This document shows positions 14,700 to 51,396 of a stretch of 64,000 nucleotides of DNA, in pieces (position 1 is the stretch's first letter; every line of letters begins with the position of its first letter). The notes under the pieces are model-generated. The model saw nothing but the letters and a program-made list of their open reading frames with translations. It ran no database searches and was not told the DNA's origin. The position numbers and the translations under genes are program-made. Source of the DNA: Halorientalis marina. Its GTDB lineage: Archaea; Halobacteriota; Halobacteria; Halobacteriales; Haloarculaceae. The stretch lies in NCBI RefSeq assembly GCF_023028345.1, contig NZ_CP095487.1, forward strand, positions 2,480,001 through 2,544,000. Direction: 5' to 3'.

Positions 14700-15023
14700 A
14701 GGTGGACTAGGTTGGGCAGTTAGGCCCTGCTCCTCGCCCGCACTACGGTCTTGAGCGGGAACCGAACCCGGGGGCGTCCGGTCAGACGGCCACGGGCCCC
14801 GCAAGCCAACGTCGAAGCCTCGTCCTGCGGGGGCGGCGGTCCACGACGCGACGTCTGCAGGGACGCTCGGTCGTGGTTAGCCAGGGACACCCCGTCAGGC
14901 GCGGAAGCGAGCAGCGGATCCCTGGACACCCGTCGCTCGTAGGGTCGCGGGGTGGAGGAGGTGCGCGGGCCTACCCGTGTCCGAACGCCGGGCAATCTCG
15001 CTGTCCGTCCATTCATCCCACCT
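14700..15023 (+). ncRNA. Signal recognition particle 7S RNA
   Basis: The 5' part GGTTGGGCAGTTAGGCCCTG and the later GTCAGGCGCGGAAGCGAGCAGC (about 14894-14915) are conserved SRP RNA elements; the second is the helix-8 site bound by SRP54. The sequence is strongly self-complementary and about 320 bases long, right for archaeal 7S RNA. AGGTGG at 14700 can pair with CCACCT at 15018 to close the terminal helix. A TATA-like CTTATGG at 14676 sits 25 bases ahead, and a T5 run follows at 15023. Ends are approximate. Confidence 0.88.
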
Positions 15024-43618: not shown

Positions 43619-44110
43619 TCAGATCGGCCGGTATTTCAGGAAGTAGCGGACGACCCCGACGAGGTAGGCGAGAATCCAGAAGAAGGTGTAACCGAAGACG
43701 CCGATGCGGAGGCGACGGCGCCAGAACTGCATCCGCTCGGACCCGATCTCGTCGAGCAACACGTCCTCGTCGTAGTCGTAGTAGAGGTCGTGTTCCCACT
43801 TGGCGCGGAAGATGCGGACGATACCGGTGCCGCCGAAGGCGAGCATCGCGTACGCCTGGAGGCCGAGGAAGGCGTGAAGCGCGGCGGCGCCGGAGAGTTG
43901 CTGGGTCAGTCGCGGGATCATCCACGTCACCATGGGAACGGTCGTCAGGGTCAGCCCGGTGAGGATGAACTTCAGGTGGTGTGTGAGCACGCCCCAGGTG
44001 ACCTTCTCGGCGTCGATCATGATCCACGCGCCGTACAGGAAACAGGGGAAACTCAGGGTGACAGCCAGGACGACGACGGTCGCGGTCGCGCCCTCCGAGA
44101 GGCCGAGCAT
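43619..44110 (-). CDS. Four-helix membrane protein near bc complex, DUF7321-like
   Basis: A 163-residue protein from the ATG at 44110, with about four membrane helices and the loops IMIDAEKVTWGVLTHHLKFI and FRAKWEHDLYYDYDEDVL. His-rich and aromatic positions in the first loop resemble heme- or quinone-facing segments. It is divergent from the gene block at 44225-49741, and such proteins recur beside haloarchaeal bc clusters. Function unknown. Confidence 0.65.
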   Translation of the reverse strand: MLGLSEGATATVVVLAVTLSFPCFLYGAWIMIDAEKVTWGVLTHHLKFILTGLTLTTVPMVTWMIPRLTQQLSGAAALHAFLGLQAYAMLAFGGTGIVRIFRAKWEHDLYYDYDEDVLLDEIGSERMQFWRRRLRIGVFGYTFFWILAYLVGVVRYFLKYRPI

Positions 44111-44224
44111 GATCGCGCTAGGGACAGGGCAGGCTTGAGGGTGCCGGAAGGCGGTGACGGACCCATCCCTCAGCGGCGACCGCAACCGTCACCCTAACGG
44201 GACCTGCGACCCTATAGGGGCACA

Positions 44225-45214
44225 ATGGTTGACGCCTCCGACGAGGACGCGGCCGCGGATCGACGCGAGGGCGCGGCGACCGAGTCCACGGAGCGCGAGG
44301 ACGCGAGCCCCGACGGGACCGAGGCGGGCGCGACCGCCGAGACAGCGGAAACGCCGGCCCCCGGCGAGGCCGAGGAAGTCACCACTGAAGAACTGCGTGC
44401 GGAGGTCGAGGCGAAGTACGACTTCGAGAACTTCGGCCCCGACCAGATGGAGGAGATGAGCGCCGACGAGTGGGAGGCCGCGTTCGACCCCGACACCTGG
44501 ATCACGGGCGACGAACTCCTCGGGCGGGTGGAGGCGGACCTCAAACGGCGCGTGCTCGACCGGGACGTGTTCGCGCGGATCGAGCGCGTCGACGGCCGGA
44601 TCGTCGCCTACTCCGACGAGGGATACGCGGTCGTCTACCCTGACGGCAGTATCGAGGGGCGCGGGACCGTCCTCAGGGACGTGAAACCGAGCGTCGCGCT
44701 GTGTTCGATGGAGTCCTACGACGCCCCCGAGATGCCCGACGGCGATCTCCTTCCCGAACCGCAGGAGGTGCCCGAGGGGAGCGGCGAACTCGGGAACCTC
44801 ATGTTACAGGTGATCGGCGGCATCCAGTTGCTCGCCGGGATCGGGCTGATCGGCGCGTTCGTCGTGACGGACCTGAACATCGTGGGCCTGATCGGCGGGC
44901 TCGGCTTCCTGACCATCGGACTGATCCTCTTTACCGTCGTCGCGAACGCCAGGCTCTCGGACCGCTTTCGCGCGGAGGAGTACCGCAATCGCCTGCGTGC
45001 GATCGGGCTGGAATCGGGCGAACGCCCGGACTTCGTCCCCATCGAGGACGGCCGCTTCGTCGGGGACGCGGCCGCGGATGCGGACGGCGGCGACTCCGGC
45101 CAGCCGGTGACCTCGGGAGAGTCGGCGGTGGACGAAAACGAAGACGATGCGGCCGCCGAGACGGACGATGCAGCAGGCGGCGACGAGGGGGATATCGCGG
45201 ACCGCGAGGGCTGA
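44225..45214 (+). CDS. Acidic membrane protein of the bc cluster, DUF7319-like
   Basis: A 329-residue protein. It has a disordered acidic N-terminus (1-50), a folded part with repeats of charged helices (EVEAKYDFENFGPDQMEEMS), a beta segment (GYAVVYPDGSIEGRGTVLRD), two membrane helices (about 190-240) and an acidic tail. No heme-binding CxxCH motif is present. It is the first of seven same-direction genes up to 49741. A role as a subunit or assembly factor of the complex is inferred from position. Confidence 0.65.
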   Translation: MVDASDEDAAADRREGAATESTEREDASPDGTEAGATAETAETPAPGEAEEVTTEELRAEVEAKYDFENFGPDQMEEMSADEWEAAFDPDTWITGDELLGRVEADLKRRVLDRDVFARIERVDGRIVAYSDEGYAVVYPDGSIEGRGTVLRDVKPSVALCSMESYDAPEMPDGDLLPEPQEVPEGSGELGNLMLQVIGGIQLLAGIGLIGAFVVTDLNIVGLIGGLGFLTIGLILFTVVANARLSDRFRAEEYRNRLRAIGLESGERPDFVPIEDGRFVGDAAADADGGDSGQPVTSGESAVDENEDDAAAETDDAAGGDEGDIADREG

Positions 45215-45343
45215 GTTCGAGGGTGCGTCCGGGCCCCGGACGAGCGGCCGAGCGGCCGGAGCCGCAAACGGCGGTTCGGGAGTACAGTGCCGTTCCTGCC
45301 GGCGTATTCGGTGGGTTTATCAAAAGGCAGTCCTGAGTTTCGG

Positions 45344-46027
45344 ATGTATATGAACAGGCGGGACTTTCTCCGGACAGCCGGCGGGGCTGCCGGCGGGACC
45401 GCCGCCGTGTCAGCCAGCACAGGCACCGCCGCAGCCGCCGAGAGCGGCGGCGGTGGTGGTGGTGGCGGCGGCGGTGGAAAGCCGGACCTCGGCGGCTACC
45501 TCGACGGTGTCGGGAACTACAACGGCAACGTCCAGGATATGACCGGCCAGGACGAGGTGACGGTCGAGGTCGGCGTCGACAACGGCGGCCAGCCCTACGG
45601 GTTCGGTCCGCCGGCTGTCCACGTCTCGAAGGGAACGACGGTCAAGTTCGAGTGGACCGGCGAAGGTGGCGGCCACAACGTTATCGCCGAGAACGGTGCG
45701 TTCGACTCAGGGTCGGCGGTCGCGTCGGCCGGCGTCAACTTCGAGCACACCTTCGAGGAGGGCGGCGTCTTCAACTACTACTGTGCGCCGCACAAGAGCC
45801 TCGGGATGAAAGGCTCGATCGTCGTCGGCCAGCCCGGCGCGGACTTCGAGACGGTCGCGGCCGGCGGTAACCAGAACACGCCGCTGAACCCCGAACACAT
45901 GGGCGTGCCCTTCCAGGCCCACTACGTCGGGATCGCGACGGTCCTGATGATGGTCGTCTCCCTGATCTTCACGTTCTTCCTGCTGAAGTACGGCGAGTCG
46001 GCCCACAGCAAAGGAGGGAACGACTGA
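45344..46027 (+). CDS. Membrane-anchored halocyanin
   Basis: A 227-residue blue copper protein. The Tat signal is MNRRDFLRTAGGAAGG. A Gly-rich spacer (11 Gly) follows, then the cupredoxin barrel with copper ligands His in GGGHNVIAENGAF, Cys and His in FNYYCAPHKSLGMKG and the Met there. A C-terminal helix (VGIATVLMMVVSLIFTFFLL) anchors it. A TTTAT box at about 45316 fits a start at 45344 (or the ATG at 45350). As part of the bc operon it probably takes electrons from the Rieske/cytochrome b complex. Confidence 0.9.
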   Translation: MYMNRRDFLRTAGGAAGGTAAVSASTGTAAAAESGGGGGGGGGGGKPDLGGYLDGVGNYNGNVQDMTGQDEVTVEVGVDNGGQPYGFGPPAVHVSKGTTVKFEWTGEGGGHNVIAENGAFDSGSAVASAGVNFEHTFEEGGVFNYYCAPHKSLGMKGSIVVGQPGADFETVAAGGNQNTPLNPEHMGVPFQAHYVGIATVLMMVVSLIFTFFLLKYGESAHSKGGND

Positions 46028-46413
46028 TGTCCTCGGAAGGCAGCAGTTACGGGGACATCCACCGCTACGAGCCGCCGCGTGAGAGCACGGCGGCGGCACT
46101 GGCGATCGTCCTCCTGACGGTCATCGAGGTCGTGTTCGTCGGGCTGTTCACGTACGGACTGATCTCCGGCTGGGGCCTGACGGAACTGGGTAACATGTTC
46201 CTGGGCGGCCTGCTGGCCGCGATCTTCATCGACCTGGCGTTCATCATGCTCCTGTACCGCAAGGAGTTCCTCCCTGACGTGATGATCGTCAAGAAACGCC
46301 GCCGGAAGTGGGAGGACCTCTACATCCGCGAGGACGACGTGGAAGGACAGAAGTTCGTCGAAGACCCCTGGGACGGCGTCAAGCGGGCGCTGTACCCCTA
46401 CTACAAGAAATAA
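46027..46413 (+). CDS. Two-helix membrane protein of the bc operon, DUF7318-like
   Basis: A 128-residue protein overlapping the halocyanin stop by one base (TGATG). It has a soluble N-terminus, membrane helices AALAIVLLTVIEVVFVGLFT and MFLGGLLAAIFIDLAFIMLL, and a basic cytoplasmic segment VKKRRRKWEDLYIREDDVEG. The tight coupling suggests a structural subunit of the complex; no known homologue of defined function. Confidence 0.75.
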   Translation: MSSEGSSYGDIHRYEPPRESTAAALAIVLLTVIEVVFVGLFTYGLISGWGLTELGNMFLGGLLAAIFIDLAFIMLLYRKEFLPDVMIVKKRRRKWEDLYIREDDVEGQKFVEDPWDGVKRALYPYYKK

Positions 46414-46414
46414 T

Positions 46415-47305
46415 ATGCCACTTGATGAAGACAAATACCCGAGCGAAACCGGCCGGCGACGCTTCGTGAAAGGCGTCGTCGGCAGTGCAGCGTTGGCGGG
46501 CGTCGGCACCGGTGGTGCCGCGGCGCTCGACACAGTGACCAGACCCTCCGGTGTCGGTGGCGGGATCACGCAGTTCATGGGCGTCGAAAACACCGCCGGG
46601 CCCGCACCGCGCGGGATGCCGATCGTCCCGATCACCATCGACTCCGAGGGCGCACTCAAGGGCGTCTGGCCCGAGGTGAAAGAGGTGGAACAGCAGGGTC
46701 GGACCGTCAAGCTCGCGGAGAGCGATATCGGCGGGACGACCTACTCCTCGACGTGGTTCCAGTACTGCGGGATTCAGAACTACACGGGCATCCAGCCCGA
46801 ACCCGAGGCCGACGTGACGAACTTCTTCCGTGCCGCGTCCGGCCCGCCGGCTGGTCTCAGCTGGCAGTCCGAGGCCAAAGAGCCCGGAGACAAGATGTTC
46901 GTCGAGGACTTCGACGACTACCAGGACTGGGGTAACGGCATCGGTCAGTCCGGGCTGGGCAAGCCGGCAATCACGAACTGGCGGTCCGACGCCGAGGACG
47001 CCTCGAACATCCCCGTCCAGGTCGTCCGGAGTCCGGAGGTCTCGAAGGTTATCAACGGCGAAGGCAGATACAGCGACGTCCCTGACAGCGTGCGGAACTT
47101 CTACGAGGCGGCGACCGAACAGGACTTCATCGCCTGGATGAACAAGTGTACGCACTTCTGCTGTGTGCCCCAGTTCAAGGCGTACGAGGGAAGTGCTAAG
47201 TTCGACGCGGAGAATGAAGTGTACTGTCAGTGCCACCAGTCGGTGTACGACCCGTTCAGTCCGGTGAGCAAGTCCTTCGTCGCACTACCGCGGCCGGAGG
47301 AGTGA
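46415..47305 (+). CDS. Rieske iron-sulfur protein of bc-type complex
   Basis: A 296-residue protein with Tat-like start GRRRFVKGVVGSAALAG and cluster ligands in CTHFCCVP (Cys245, His247) and CQCH (Cys271, His274), followed by the SVYDPF end of the fold. It is longer than bacterial Rieske proteins (about 180), with an insert before the cluster domain. It receives electrons from quinol at cytochrome b and passes them on, here probably to halocyanin. Confidence 0.92.
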   Translation: MPLDEDKYPSETGRRRFVKGVVGSAALAGVGTGGAAALDTVTRPSGVGGGITQFMGVENTAGPAPRGMPIVPITIDSEGALKGVWPEVKEVEQQGRTVKLAESDIGGTTYSSTWFQYCGIQNYTGIQPEPEADVTNFFRAASGPPAGLSWQSEAKEPGDKMFVEDFDDYQDWGNGIGQSGLGKPAITNWRSDAEDASNIPVQVVRSPEVSKVINGEGRYSDVPDSVRNFYEAATEQDFIAWMNKCTHFCCVPQFKAYEGSAKFDAENEVYCQCHQSVYDPFSPVSKSFVALPRPEE

Positions 47306-47309
47306 TACA

Positions 47310-48113
47310 ATGAGTCTCGAAAAGAAAGACGAACACGATCACGAAGGGTGGATGGAGACCCGCGACCTGACGGTCGTCGAGGAGCGGTACCTCGGCATCC
47401 TGATGTGGCTCGACAAGCGGTTTCGGTTGGTCGACTACCTGGAGCTGCTGGAGGACCTGTACTACAAGGTCAACATGCAGATGCCGAAGAGCCACACTGA
47501 GCAGTACGGGCTCGACAACAAGTTCTGGTACTGGTACCCGCTGTACGCGCTGGGGTCGTTCTCGACATTAGCGTACATCGTCGCGGCAATATCCGGCGCT
47601 TTGCTCGGGTTCTACTACGCTCCGGCGGCAGCCGGGGCGTCGGGGAACCCGACGGTCGCCTACGAACAGCTGGAGCTGATCATGACCCAGCTCAACTTCG
47701 GGTTCATGCTCCGGTCGATCCACCGGTGGTCGGCACAGGTGATGACGGCGGCCGTGTTCCTGCACATGCTGCGGGTCTACTTCACGGGCGCGTACAAGGA
47801 ACCCCGTGAGCTGAACTGGATCATCGGCATCGTGCTGATCAGCCTGACGATGGTCTTCGGATACACGGGGTACCTGCTCCCGTGGGACCAGCTGGCCTAC
47901 TGGGCCGGCACCATCGGCGTCAACATGGCCCTCTCCATCCCGCTGGCCGGCGAGTGGGTCGCCCAGCTGATGTTCGGCGGGTTCACGCTGACGCAGGCCA
48001 CGCTGCAGCGGATGTACATCCTGCACGTGTTCTTCCTGCCCTTTATCGTGACTCTGCTGATCGCGGTCCACATCGGCATCGTCTGGATGCAGGGCATCGC
48101 GGAACCACACTAA
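47310..48113 (+). CDS. Cytochrome b (N-terminal, heme-carrying part)
   Basis: A 267-residue protein with four membrane helices. The two heme-ligand pairs are His138 with His239 and His152 with His254 (in SIHRWSAQV, FLHMLRVYF, YILHVFFLP and IAVHIGIVW). The quinol-site loop follows MVFGYTGYLLPWDQLAYWAG. The spacings (13 residues between the first two, 14 between the last two) are of the b6 type. The second half of cytochrome b is a separate gene just downstream. Confidence 0.95.
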   Translation: MSLEKKDEHDHEGWMETRDLTVVEERYLGILMWLDKRFRLVDYLELLEDLYYKVNMQMPKSHTEQYGLDNKFWYWYPLYALGSFSTLAYIVAAISGALLGFYYAPAAAGASGNPTVAYEQLELIMTQLNFGFMLRSIHRWSAQVMTAAVFLHMLRVYFTGAYKEPRELNWIIGIVLISLTMVFGYTGYLLPWDQLAYWAGTIGVNMALSIPLAGEWVAQLMFGGFTLTQATLQRMYILHVFFLPFIVTLLIAVHIGIVWMQGIAEPH

Positions 48114-48117
48114 CACA

Positions 48118-48954
48118 ATGACCGAGGACAACACCAACTCCGAGACGGCGACCGACGGTGGTCCCGCGAGCGAAGCGAGCGGGGCCTCGTCAGAGCTACG
48201 CTCTGACGGTGGCGAGGAAGTCACCGACGGCGGGACGGGCATCGTCCCGCCGGACGACGAGACCCCGACCTGGAGCGAGCGCAAGGAGCGCACCCAGGGG
48301 CTCTCCCGGCTGACCTACGAGTACTTCGAGCGCGCACGCCGCGAGGACCAGGACCTGCGCCAGGAGTCCAGCTACGTCGAGCGCGACGTGCTTGGCTTCC
48401 CGGCCTGGCCCCACGAGATGATCCGCAACCTCGCGCTGTCGAGTTTCTTCGTCGGGATGATCATCTTCCTGTCGGCGACGCTGCCGCCCCACCTGGGCGC
48501 GCCGGCGAACGCCTCGAAGACCCCGGCGGTCATCCTGCCGGACTGGTACCTCTACTGGTCCTTTGGCCTGCTCAAGCTCGGTCCGCTGAACCCCGAGCTG
48601 AGCCTGCTGGGCGGCGCGAAGCTCATGGCCGACCAGACCTACGGTGTCCTGGCGAACCTGGTGATCGTCGGCATCATCGCCATCGTGCCCTTCCTGAACA
48701 AGGGTGCGGCCCGGCGGCCGGTCGAACAGCCCTTCTGGGCGTCGGTCGGCGTCTTCGGCGTCGTGTTCGCGTTCACCATCGCAGTGCTGTCGGTGAAGAA
48801 CCTGATGCCGATGGGGTCGGCGCTGCTGCTCGACCTGACCTTCCTGTTGCCATTCGTGGCAGGGTTCATCAGCTACGCCATCCTCAAGTCGATGCGCGAG
48901 GGATACATGTTCACCCTCAACCGCCGGTACTACCGGCTCCGGCCGCCGAAGTAA
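48118..48954 (+). CDS. Cytochrome b C-terminal subunit (subunit IV-like)
   Basis: A 278-residue protein. After a disordered N-terminus it has the quinol-site PDWYLYWSFGLLKL (equivalent of PEWY) and three membrane helices, ending YMFTLNRRYYRLRPPK. The first 40 residues are encoded by palindromic DNA (see 48163-48207) and are not conserved in type. Together with the previous gene it makes a full cytochrome b, split as in b6f complexes. Confidence 0.93.
   Translation: MTEDNTNSETATDGGPASEASGASSELRSDGGEEVTDGGTGIVPPDDETPTWSERKERTQGLSRLTYEYFERARREDQDLRQESSYVERDVLGFPAWPHEMIRNLALSSFFVGMIIFLSATLPPHLGAPANASKTPAVILPDWYLYWSFGLLKLGPLNPELSLLGGAKLMADQTYGVLANLVIVGIIAIVPFLNKGAARRPVEQPFWASVGVFGVVFAFTIAVLSVKNLMPMGSALLLDLTFLLPFVAGFISYAILKSMREGYMFTLNRRYYRLRPPK
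48163..48207. repeat. Palindromic element inside a coding region
   Basis: CCCGC at 48163-48167 pairs with GCGGG at 48179-48183, and GTCAGAGC (48189-48196) pairs with GCTCTGAC (48200-48207) around TAC. They lie within the disordered N-terminal stretch of the cytochrome b C-terminal gene, encoding ASEASGASSELRSDGG. They resemble in style the palindromes of intergenic repeats elsewhere in the window. Confidence 0.55.
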
Positions 48955-48990
48955 CGCGCGCCCACCGTTTCGTCGCAGTGCTACTTCTCA

Positions 48991-49482
48991 ATGACCGACG
49001 ACCACACAACGAAAGAGCCGTCCGACTCGGACGGGGCCGAAGACCGGTCAGCCGCCGACGAGGGCACGACCGCGACCGGTGACTCGATAGCAGCACCGGC
49101 ACCGGACGCCGGCGGGGCGGCCGGTGACGCACGGACTGCCGCCGCCGAGCCGGTAGGAACGAGCGGCGAGAACGAGGCCGAGGGCAACGGAGACGACGAC
49201 GGGAAGACGCGTGACGTGGTCGTCCCGATGCGAGTCTACAAAGCGGTGACGGTGTTCACGACGCTGTTCGCGGTGGTGACGGTCGTCGGCGGGTTCGTCG
49301 TGCTGGACACGGCGACGAACCGGGCACGGGCGAGTTTCTCGGAGATCGACCCGCTGCTCGCGCTGGTCGGGATCGCTCTGATCGTCGCGGGCGCGGCGGC
49401 GTACGCGTTCTCGACGCGCTTCCGTGCGGACGGAATGGGAAAGTCTAAAGACGACACCGACGAAGATTCCGATAATGGCTGA
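48991..49482 (+). CDS. Acidic two-helix membrane protein, DUF7315-like
   Basis: A 163-residue protein. The first 75 residues are a disordered Asp/Glu/Ala arm. Then RDVVVPMRVYKAVTVFTTLF leads into two membrane helices and an acidic tail. It lies downstream of the cytochrome b genes and overlaps the next gene by eight bases. It is a haloarchaea-specific bc-cluster member of unknown role. Confidence 0.7.
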   Translation: MTDDHTTKEPSDSDGAEDRSAADEGTTATGDSIAAPAPDAGGAAGDARTAAAEPVGTSGENEAEGNGDDDGKTRDVVVPMRVYKAVTVFTTLFAVVTVVGGFVVLDTATNRARASFSEIDPLLALVGIALIVAGAAAYAFSTRFRADGMGKSKDDTDEDSDNG

Positions 49483-49741
49483 CGAATTCGCCAAGGGCCT
49501 CGGCATCCTGATGACGGCCGGGCTGGGCTGGATGGTCCTGGCGGGCTGGTACAACACGGCAGGCTTCGAGGATACCCAGTTGATCGCACCGGACCCCGAG
49601 AACGTCGAGGTGTACGGACAGCTCGGTCTGCTGCTGAAGGACGCGCTGTTCTGGTTCGCGCTCATCGGCGCGCTCACCTTCTGGGTCATCATCCCTGCCG
49701 TCGACGAAGCCCGCGACGCCTGGTCCGATCGGAACAGCTAA
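49475..49741 (+). CDS. Small two-helix membrane protein, DUF7314-like
   Basis: An 88-residue protein (ATG at 49475): MADEFAKGLGILMTAGLGWM, then a loop AGFEDTQLIAPDPENVEVYG and a second helix LLLKDALFWFALIGALTFWV. Start and stop overlap with the preceding gene indicate coupling. Last gene of the bc operon; function unknown. Confidence 0.7.
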   Translation: MADEFAKGLGILMTAGLGWMVLAGWYNTAGFEDTQLIAPDPENVEVYGQLGLLLKDALFWFALIGALTFWVIIPAVDEARDAWSDRNS

Positions 49742-50096
49742 TCAACCACACTCGCTTTTCGCGCTTTCACTGCCGGTGAGCCGACGGTACGCTCGCCGGC
49801 GACAGTATGGCGGTGCTCCCGGCCGGTCCACGGGGTTGGCGCCTGCCGTCGAGTTCGCGGCTCGTTGGCGCCCCGCCTCGGGGGGGTGTCCGTCGTGAGA
49901 GCGAGGCAGCAGTCGTCGACCGTCTTCTCTCCACCGCCGACGAGCGCTCAGTCGCGGTTCGAGGGCGGAAGAAACGGGCGACGAGTCGGGACCGAGCTGG
50001 CAGCCCCAGTGTCGGTACCGCGGCATCGTGGTTCCGGAGGCGGGACACAGGGACGGCTGCTCGTTGGGGAAGGAAGCCGAGAACGGAGTGCGGTCG
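49742..50096. other. 355-base gap without a recognised feature
   Basis: Between the end of the bc operon and a convergent membrane gene. Open frames here are short, rich in Arg/Ser/Gly and look like shadows of GC-rich DNA. No convincing gene, tRNA or strong palindrome was found. Confidence 0.4.
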
Positions 50097-50537
50097 TCAG
50101 ACGATGGACGACCAGATGGGCTTGACGATGAAAAACAGGGTGATGTACGCGACGTACATCAGGACGAACGCCGAGGCGGCGATGGCGCCTTTCGGTCGTT
50201 CGAGGTCGATCCCGCGGCGGGCTTCCACCTTGCGTGCCTCGAACTCGAAGAAGTCGGTGATGAACAGGCCGACGATGAGCGACGAGGCGACGATGCCGGA
50301 GTGCTGGTGGAGGCTCACGTAGTAGAACGACGCGAGCACGAGCAGGACGTTGGAGGCGACGTGGATGGGGTGCCGGCTCAGCGCCTCCGCACCCTCCTCG
50401 GCCTGCTTGACGTGCTGGCGGTGCTGGAACGCCCGCGTTGCGATGTTGACCACGGCGAGGGCCAGCAAGACGTACCCCATGTACGGCCCCAGGACCGTGT
50501 CGAGTGGTCCGAAGAACGTGACCGATGGTGCTGCCAT
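50097..50537 (-). CDS. Four-helix membrane protein, DUF7313-like
   Basis: A 146-residue protein with four hydrophobic helices and the segments AFQHRQHVKQAEEGAEALSR, HPIHVASNVLLVLASFYYVS and LHQHSGIVASSL, giving several membrane-adjacent His residues. It converges on the bc operon and, with the gene at 43619, brackets it. The His pattern could bind heme or copper, but this is speculation; no family function is known. Confidence 0.68.
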   Translation of the reverse strand: MAAPSVTFFGPLDTVLGPYMGYVLLALAVVNIATRAFQHRQHVKQAEEGAEALSRHPIHVASNVLLVLASFYYVSLHQHSGIVASSLIVGLFITDFFEFEARKVEARRGIDLERPKGAIAASAFVLMYVAYITLFFIVKPIWSSIV

Positions 50538-50588
50538 ACACGAACGTCCGTACCTGCACCATTAGAGTTTTTCCAATCGCCGCCGCGA

Positions 50589-51356
50589 TCAGGTGTCGCC
50601 GTCGGCGTCGAACACCGACTGGCTCCCCGGCACCGTCGCGAGCGTGAGGTGATCGGCGACGGAGAGCGAGACGGGGGCTCCCGGCGGGATGGTGCCGACG
50701 GTCCGGTGGTCGGCGTGGAGTTCGACCGCGTGTTCGTCGCGGACGACGCGGAGTTCCACATCGGAGAGGGGTAGTACCCAGTGGTCGGGATCGGTCGCGA
50801 ACGGCGCGACGGGAACGACGGCGGCGACGCCCGTTCCGGGCGCGACAGTCGGCCCATCGACGCGGCTCGTGTACCCGTGACTGCCAAGCGGGGTGGCGAC
50901 CACGACCCCGTCGGCACGGAAGTCGGCGACTGCTCGCTCGCCGGTCGCGACGGCGTACCCGGAGATGCGGGCCGGTTCGGCCGTCACGAGCATCACGTCC
51001 GCCAGCGCGCGCGTGCGATGCTGCCCGTCGACCGCCACGTCGAGGACCGGCTCCGTGACCGTCCCGTTCGCGCCGGCGAGGAAGGCCTCGACACCGGCCT
51101 CGCCGTCGGCGAGCGGGACCGACGGAACTCCCGGCCCGGCGTCCACGGGGAGGACCGGCGCGGTCGGAACGTCTGCGGCGACGAGCACCGAGAGCGACCG
51201 GGGGCCGACGGCGACGAGGCGCTCCGGATCGGCTTCGCGAACGGTCTCGGGTGGCCCGGTCACGACCTCGGCCCCGGCGGCCTCGACGGCGGCACGGACG
51301 GTGTCGCTGTCCTCGCCGACGACACCGACGACCGTGCCCGCGGCAGACTCACTCAT
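50589..51356 (-). CDS. Degenerate NAD kinase-fold protein
   Basis: A 255-residue protein from the ATG at 51356. TVVGVVGEDSDTVRAAVEAA at the start, the second-domain phrase ADGVVVATPLGSHGYTSRVD and VVPVAPFATDPDHWVLPLSD match the NAD kinase fold. The nucleotide-binding GGDGT of active enzymes is replaced by AVGPRS, and the catalytic Asp is missing. It may have lost kinase activity and kept a binding role. A GTG one codon upstream is possible. Confidence 0.8.
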   Translation of the reverse strand: MSESAAGTVVGVVGEDSDTVRAAVEAAGAEVVTGPPETVREADPERLVAVGPRSLSVLVAADVPTAPVLPVDAGPGVPSVPLADGEAGVEAFLAGANGTVTEPVLDVAVDGQHRTRALADVMLVTAEPARISGYAVATGERAVADFRADGVVVATPLGSHGYTSRVDGPTVAPGTGVAAVVPVAPFATDPDHWVLPLSDVELRVVRDEHAVELHADHRTVGTIPPGAPVSLSVADHLTLATVPGSQSVFDADGDT

Positions 51357-51396
51357 CACACGGGTCCTGGCACCGGGTCGGCAAAAGCGTGGGGAC

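Follow-up and report, generated by a model that had tools for sequence, protein, structure and literature searches.

The cytochrome b of the cytochrome b6f complex is split into a b6-like part and a subunit IV-like part, and the cysteine of its YCLG motif binds an extra heme covalently. The Rieske domain of textbook bc complexes moves by swinging about a hinge that joins its anchor to its first strand. The actinobacterial bcc complex (QcrABC), whose substrate is menaquinol (PMC8795186), has an unsplit cytochrome b, diheme QcrC and a Rieske subunit, QcrA, that is one non-permuted protein. In the Methanoperedens complexes (PMC4683180), represented here by loci L244-L248, a small anchored acceptor, a DUF7318-like protein, the Rieske protein, PetB and PetD are encoded in this order (for L244, L245, L247 and L248 the gene order is as published); the acceptor carries heme c, pentaheme cytochromes are present, the covalent-heme cysteine is kept and the Rieske protein has the ordinary order. 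The haloarchaeal petABD has been listed as an open issue (PMC8305020). We analyzed one such locus, positions 43619-50537 of a 64,000-nucleotide stretch of Halorientalis marina (contig NZ_CP095487.1, positions 2,480,001 to 2,544,000), called the window below; the host genome is 4.75 Mb and its relatives are haloarchaeal. We consider it quite likely that the locus encodes a heme-c-free menaquinol:halocyanin oxidoreductase of the Rieske/cytochrome b superfamily.

Like the b6f complex, the haloarchaeal complex has a split cytochrome b, whereas it has neither cytochrome f nor the covalent-heme cysteine, and its Rieske protein is permuted. To the bcc complex it may be tied by a moderate likeness of DUF7318 to the N-terminal transmembrane region of QcrA and by menaquinol as the probable substrate. 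With the Methanoperedens loci it shares its gene order; the other five DUF families of the window locus were not found there. The c-type cytochrome subunit (CxxCH) of bc1 and bcc complexes was not found, the motif occurring in none of the ten proteins of the locus, as an earlier note on this DNA had also observed. The ten genes are listed below.

43619-44110, minus strand: DUF7321 (PF24007), Pfam 263.5 bits
44225-45214, plus strand: DUF7319 (PF24003), Pfam 322.6 bits; the first plus-strand gene
45350-46027, plus strand: halocyanin, TIGR03102 142.6 bits (cut-off 93.8)
46027-46413, plus strand: DUF7318 (PF24002), Pfam 246.4 bits
46415-47305, plus strand: Rieske protein PetA, Pfam Rieske 14.4 bits (below the cut-off of 20.3)
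47310-48113, plus strand: N-terminal part of cytochrome b, PetB, b6-like, Pfam 154 bits, phmmer to b6f 2e-44
48118-48954, plus strand: C-terminal part of cytochrome b, PetD, subunit IV-like, Pfam PF00032 37.5 bits
48991-49482, plus strand: DUF7315 (PF23997), Pfam 108.1 bits
49475-49741, plus strand: DUF7314 (PF23996), Pfam 132.2 bits
50097-50537, minus strand: DUF7313 (PF23995), Pfam 211.2 bits

All ten are intact ATG-to-stop frames, the start codon of DUF7321 probably being the ATG at 44110, and the six DUF proteins scored 108 to 323 bits against a Pfam cut-off of 27 bits. These frames and the Pfam and TIGR03102 matches bear out the earlier note, which had described a bc-type locus with Rieske protein, split cytochrome b, halocyanin and six DUF proteins. 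DUF7321 is divergent from the operon and DUF7313 is convergent here. Because the genes from halocyanin to DUF7314 overlap, as DUF7314 does with DUF7315 from its start at 49475, or lie at most 36 bases apart, their spacing suggests a single transcript. About 120 loci in other genomes show this arrangement too, which is thus not due to chance. The six DUF families were mentioned nowhere in the open-access literature searched.

Co-occurrence with petB, scored as present at E below 1e-100, was analyzed in 194 genomes of the class. The gene was found in 138 and lacking from 56, of which 4 hold only a distant petB paralog, in agreement with the published estimate that about one third of haloarchaea are without the complex (PMC8305020). 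The absences were spread over four families (f1, f2, f3 and f10), and since each of these also contains petB-positive genera they do not represent one clade. None of the six DUF families scored above the cut-off in any of the 56 petB-lacking genomes; the lone match below it, to DUF7319 in G182, had an E-value of 0.002 and an internal stop. Near petB, five of the families were present in 116 to 120 of the 121 petB-positive loci each (DUF7321 in 116, DUF7319 in 118, DUF7315 and DUF7314 in 117), and DUF7313 in 95. Copies other than DUF7313 were missing from L006 (a short locus), L102 (a second petB copy), L126 (divergent, in genome G021), L039, L069, L071 and L106, where G021 was searched genome-wide and the other loci were judged at the locus. 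Where DUF7313 was not near petB, a genome-wide search found it elsewhere in every such petB-positive genome checked, which argues against mere neighbourhood. The earlier note had taken the extra membrane proteins as good candidates for subunits or assembly factors of a quinol-halocyanin oxidoreductase and proposed strict co-occurrence as a check; this check came out in its favour, and an obligate link to a quinol:halocyanin complex is well supported by this distribution among genomes. The Rieske gene itself was linked to petB in only 64 of the 121 loci. The f4 genomes tested carry the PetA family elsewhere in the genome, and in Haloferax volcanii the Rieske gene HVO_2620 lies apart from HVO_0842/0841 (PMC8305020).

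DUF7315, DUF7314, DUF7313, DUF7319 and DUF7321 were not detected in the outgroup loci and, as far as tested, would be haloarchaeal additions; we infer that they are lineage-specific subunits or assembly factors. It is rather unlikely that all six families are assembly or cofactor-insertion factors and not stable subunits. Such a role would fit the strict co-occurrence equally well, no cofactor motif is recognisable in any of the six, the genes of DUF7321 and DUF7313 lie on the opposite strand and DUF7313 is sometimes unlinked; however, DUF7315 and DUF7314 directly follow petD on the same strand, and DUF7318 both matches part of a structural subunit, QcrA, and is encoded, in all relatives, between the acceptor gene and the Rieske (or petB) gene.

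The four heme-b histidines of PetB (H138, H152, H239 and H254) were found at 98% or more in 121 loci and the quinol-oxidation motif PDWY of PetD at 98% or more in 120 loci. PetB and PetD are encoded by two adjacent genes, and their best matches in the PDB are b6f subunits. At the position of the covalent-heme cysteine, all 121 haloarchaeal cytochromes b have Y[AST]LG, and the outgroup cytochrome b keeps the cysteine of YCLG. The closest non-haloarchaeal relative was found at L238 (10346-14063), where cytochrome c, a DUF7318-like protein, an ordinary Rieske protein, PetB and PetD are encoded. Its PetB is about 50% identical to haloarchaeal PetB, most of the N-terminal extension included, and its PetD continues into a ferredoxin-like cysteine-rich domain.

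The window halocyanin has a twin-arginine translocation (Tat)-type N-terminus, the ligands of type I copper (H, C, H, M) and a C-terminal membrane anchor. A halocyanin was present in 120 of the 121 loci, directly before DUF7318 or the Rieske gene, and the copper-ligand pattern was found in 112 of the 120; the other 8 deviate from the simple pattern. In L238, L244, L245, L247 and L248 a heme c protein that is anchored in the membrane at its C-terminus takes the place of halocyanin. When a model of the halocyanin anchor was run against 478 outgroup open reading frames, three of these syntenic cytochromes ranked 1 to 3 (E 0.013, 0.072 and 0.15), with a common motif of the type G(V/F)(P/H)xx(A/T)(H/W/Y)x(V/L)G. 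As halocyanin stands at the place of cytochrome c and the covalent-heme cysteine is replaced, the c-type heme sites of the haloarchaeal complex appear, from these comparisons, to have been exchanged or lost, and halocyanin may have come to sit on the same anchor instead of the heme c domain. The electron acceptor would be halocyanin and the quinol menaquinol, which is the haloarchaeal quinone (PMC8305020). Alternatively, the operon halocyanin could be one of several exchangeable carriers whose anchor resembles that of cytochrome c by chance, since haloarchaea have several halocyanins (eight are listed in Haloferax volcanii; PMC6267482) and the E-values of the anchor are weak. We regard this as unlikely in view of the near-constant position of halocyanin immediately before DUF7318 or the Rieske gene and of the top three ranks and common motif of the syntenic anchors.

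DUF7318 is a transmembrane hairpin, and the window copy matches the QcrA model at E 3.8e-4. A hidden Markov model (HMM) of the QcrA transmembrane hairpin matched all 120 DUF7318 proteins (best 1.2e-6), while the other operon proteins scored 0.006 or worse. In profile comparison (hhalign) DUF7318 scored 29.6 against QcrA, above the maxima of 24.5 for 100 locally shuffled decoys and 22.5 for the other operon proteins. Directly before the L238 Rieske gene lies the gene of a DUF7318-like short membrane protein (E 1.4e-11), which is a member of Pfam DUF7318 (41.6 bits, cut-off 27) with QcrA_N in second place (E 0.016). DUF7318-like proteins were also found directly before the Rieske protein in L245, L247 and L248 (E 2.5e-7 to 3e-5) and in L244 (0.09); the L246 locus ends before this position. 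By these matches DUF7318 is related to the small transmembrane protein beside Rieske genes in other archaea, and it is likely, not proven, that it is the detached N-terminal transmembrane region of a QcrA-type Rieske subunit. An independent small subunit, resembling QcrA as any hairpin of two transmembrane segments would, is an improbable alternative: the structural match is non-significant, the hhalign probability is only 69% and the L244 copy is barely detectable, but the hairpin HMM separates all DUF7318 proteins from the other operon proteins, the hhalign score exceeds every decoy, QcrA_N is second for the L238 copy, and the gene directly precedes the Rieske gene in relatives.

By motif order and profile alignment, PetA is a circular permutant of the ordinary Rieske protein. 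In ordinary Rieskes a conserved segment of the pattern GPAPR..LPQ.PI...DG.L follows the cluster boxes, for example CPCHFAKFDPTKGAEVTGGPAPRALPQLPITLSSDGFL in the haloarchaeal paralog L143. In PetA this canonical order of cluster boxes and then C-terminal GPxPR strand segment was not found; the moved segment, GPAPRGMPIVPITIDSEGAL, comes first, directly after a Tat-like anchor, and ends in YCG. In the window protein, residues ~62-119 (GPAPRGMP... to WFQYCG) precede CTHFCC (245-250) and CQCHQS (271-276). The boxes CTH(F/Y)CC and CxCH were present in 80 of 80 PetA proteins, whose C-terminus lies about 22 residues past CxCH. In ordinary Rieskes GPxxR follows CxCH by 18 residues, and in the PetA copies listed it precedes CxCH by ~200. 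Because of the permutation, the Pfam Rieske model matches the window protein only to position 70 of 88 and below the cut-off.

Profiles of 80 PetA and 84 ordinary Rieske proteins gave, with hhalign, two alignments in swapped order, each with a probability above 95%: PetA 217-278 to ordinary 104-158 (score 67.5) and PetA 51-78 to ordinary 147-174 (score 60.5, E 1.6e-8). Against a doubled ordinary profile, a single alignment spanned both (score 101.5, E 8.7e-14), while two collinear sets of ordinary Rieskes gained nothing by doubling (349.9 vs 349.5). When the N-terminal segment was moved to the end of PetA, the score against the ordinary profile rose from 67.5 to 131.4 and the match then covered the anchor, compared with at most 68.5 for other PetA segments moved and at most 79.7 for the moved segment with its columns shuffled. 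Versions of the overlapping motif at both ends of PetA, GPAPRGMP and FVALPRPE, fit an origin by tandem duplication and then trimming.

Extra cysteines are found in all 80 PetA proteins, in the CC of box I and in the YCG motif (one FCG), and neither CC nor YCG occurs in any of the 84 ordinary Rieskes; they may form an extra disulfide between the YCG loop and box I. The L238 Rieske carries both cysteines in the ordinary order, ending ...GGPAKRALPQIPIKIVDGRIIGAPEKPDWYVYCGVDVE, and is matched by the PetA model in the order 8-33, 218-272, 48-79, 107-116. Since the extra cysteine pair occurs in both topologies, it suggests that the segment, although moved, still occupies the same position in the fold. 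That PetA is a Rieske truncated after the cluster, with an N-terminal GPAPR that resembles the canonical C-terminus by convergence, is highly improbable: the motif is short and DnaK chains also match it, but this explanation was rejected in view of the score of the segment alone, the relocation scores against their controls, and the C-terminal, YCG-ending segment of L238 with the paired cysteines in both topologies. In the open-access literature searched no mention of a circularly permuted Rieske was found, papers matching both terms appearing unrelated by title and abstract. Neither the permutation nor the likeness of DUF7318 to QcrA had been noticed in the earlier note.

In the proposed mechanism, PetB and PetD would form the cytochrome b core, where menaquinol would be oxidised at a Qo site of the PDWY type. 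Its electrons would bifurcate, one passing back through the two b hemes and the other to the Rieske cluster of PetA. The membrane-anchored halocyanin would take the electron from the cluster, replacing cytochrome c1/f, and would feed terminal oxidases. This route is deduced from homology. More tentatively, and at somewhat less than an even chance, a bc complex was converted from heme c to copper, with a permuted Rieske head that has an added disulfide next to the cluster and a detached hairpin (DUF7318) and that passes electrons to halocyanin on the former cytochrome c anchor, the hinge-driven Rieske movement thereby being rewired or absent.

Several observations weigh against the main interpretation, a menaquinol:halocyanin oxidoreductase with a permuted Rieske protein. 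The petB-positive genome G021 is without DUF7319 and DUF7321. A DnaK strand is also similar to the permuted motif (E 0.1-0.3), the anchor gave weak E-values (0.013-0.15) and its model missed one syntenic cytochrome c. The link of DUF7318 to QcrA is moderate: besides the hhalign probability, a Foldseek search of the AlphaFold hairpin over 350,542 chains gave QcrA first at a non-significant E of 1.6, and the reverse search with the DUF7318 model did no better than E 0.017. L238 consists of one contig, which may be misbinned, and this petB was found in 0 of 57 other genomes of its class.

DUF7321 is a predicted protein of four transmembrane segments with invariant His45 and His79. Its AlphaFold model (predicted local distance difference test, pLDDT, 89.9) has long helices, Foldseek with this model returned only unrelated helix bundles, and Pfam scans of 46 members gave no consistent relative. 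In the model two long helices that follow one another each have one of these histidines near their start; the two are therefore probably near opposite membrane faces and unlikely to be bis-histidine ligands of a single heme b. An hmmsearch of PDB sequences with the DUF7318 and DUF7321 profiles gave no match. DUF7319 has an acidic N-terminus, a conserved domain and a hydrophobic hairpin; DUF7315 an acidic N-terminus and two hydrophobic segments; DUF7314 is a small protein with two hydrophobic segments and DUF7313 a hydrophobic membrane protein. A possible link between DUF7315 and the small gene that follows petD in L248 was rejected, the scores being too weak (0.08-0.5).

Some further observations were made in the window and in related genomes. 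An NAD-kinase-like gene usually accompanies DUF7313 (window 50097-51359), even where the two are ordered or oriented differently with respect to the operon, and an archaeal signal recognition particle (SRP) RNA gene lies at 14700-15010 of the window (Rfam, 185.6 bits). A second PetA-family Rieske gene occurs away from petB in some genomes (L240, L241, L242 and G109; partial in G003), and G159 holds the second petB, L102. In a petB-lacking genome, a weak DUF7319-like frame (L239, 7757-8614, minus strand; E 2e-5, below the Pfam cut-off, with a stop inside the match) is possibly a remnant.

As a natural permutant that shifts the attachment of the hinge and keeps the cofactor, PetA would test which parts of the Rieske swing are needed. 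An acceptor changed in place from heme c to copper would be a clear route by which haloarchaea could have removed c-type heme from the complex. Because the six families co-occur strictly with petB, they form a defined set of candidate subunits and assembly factors for this open-issue complex, in species that are genetically tractable.

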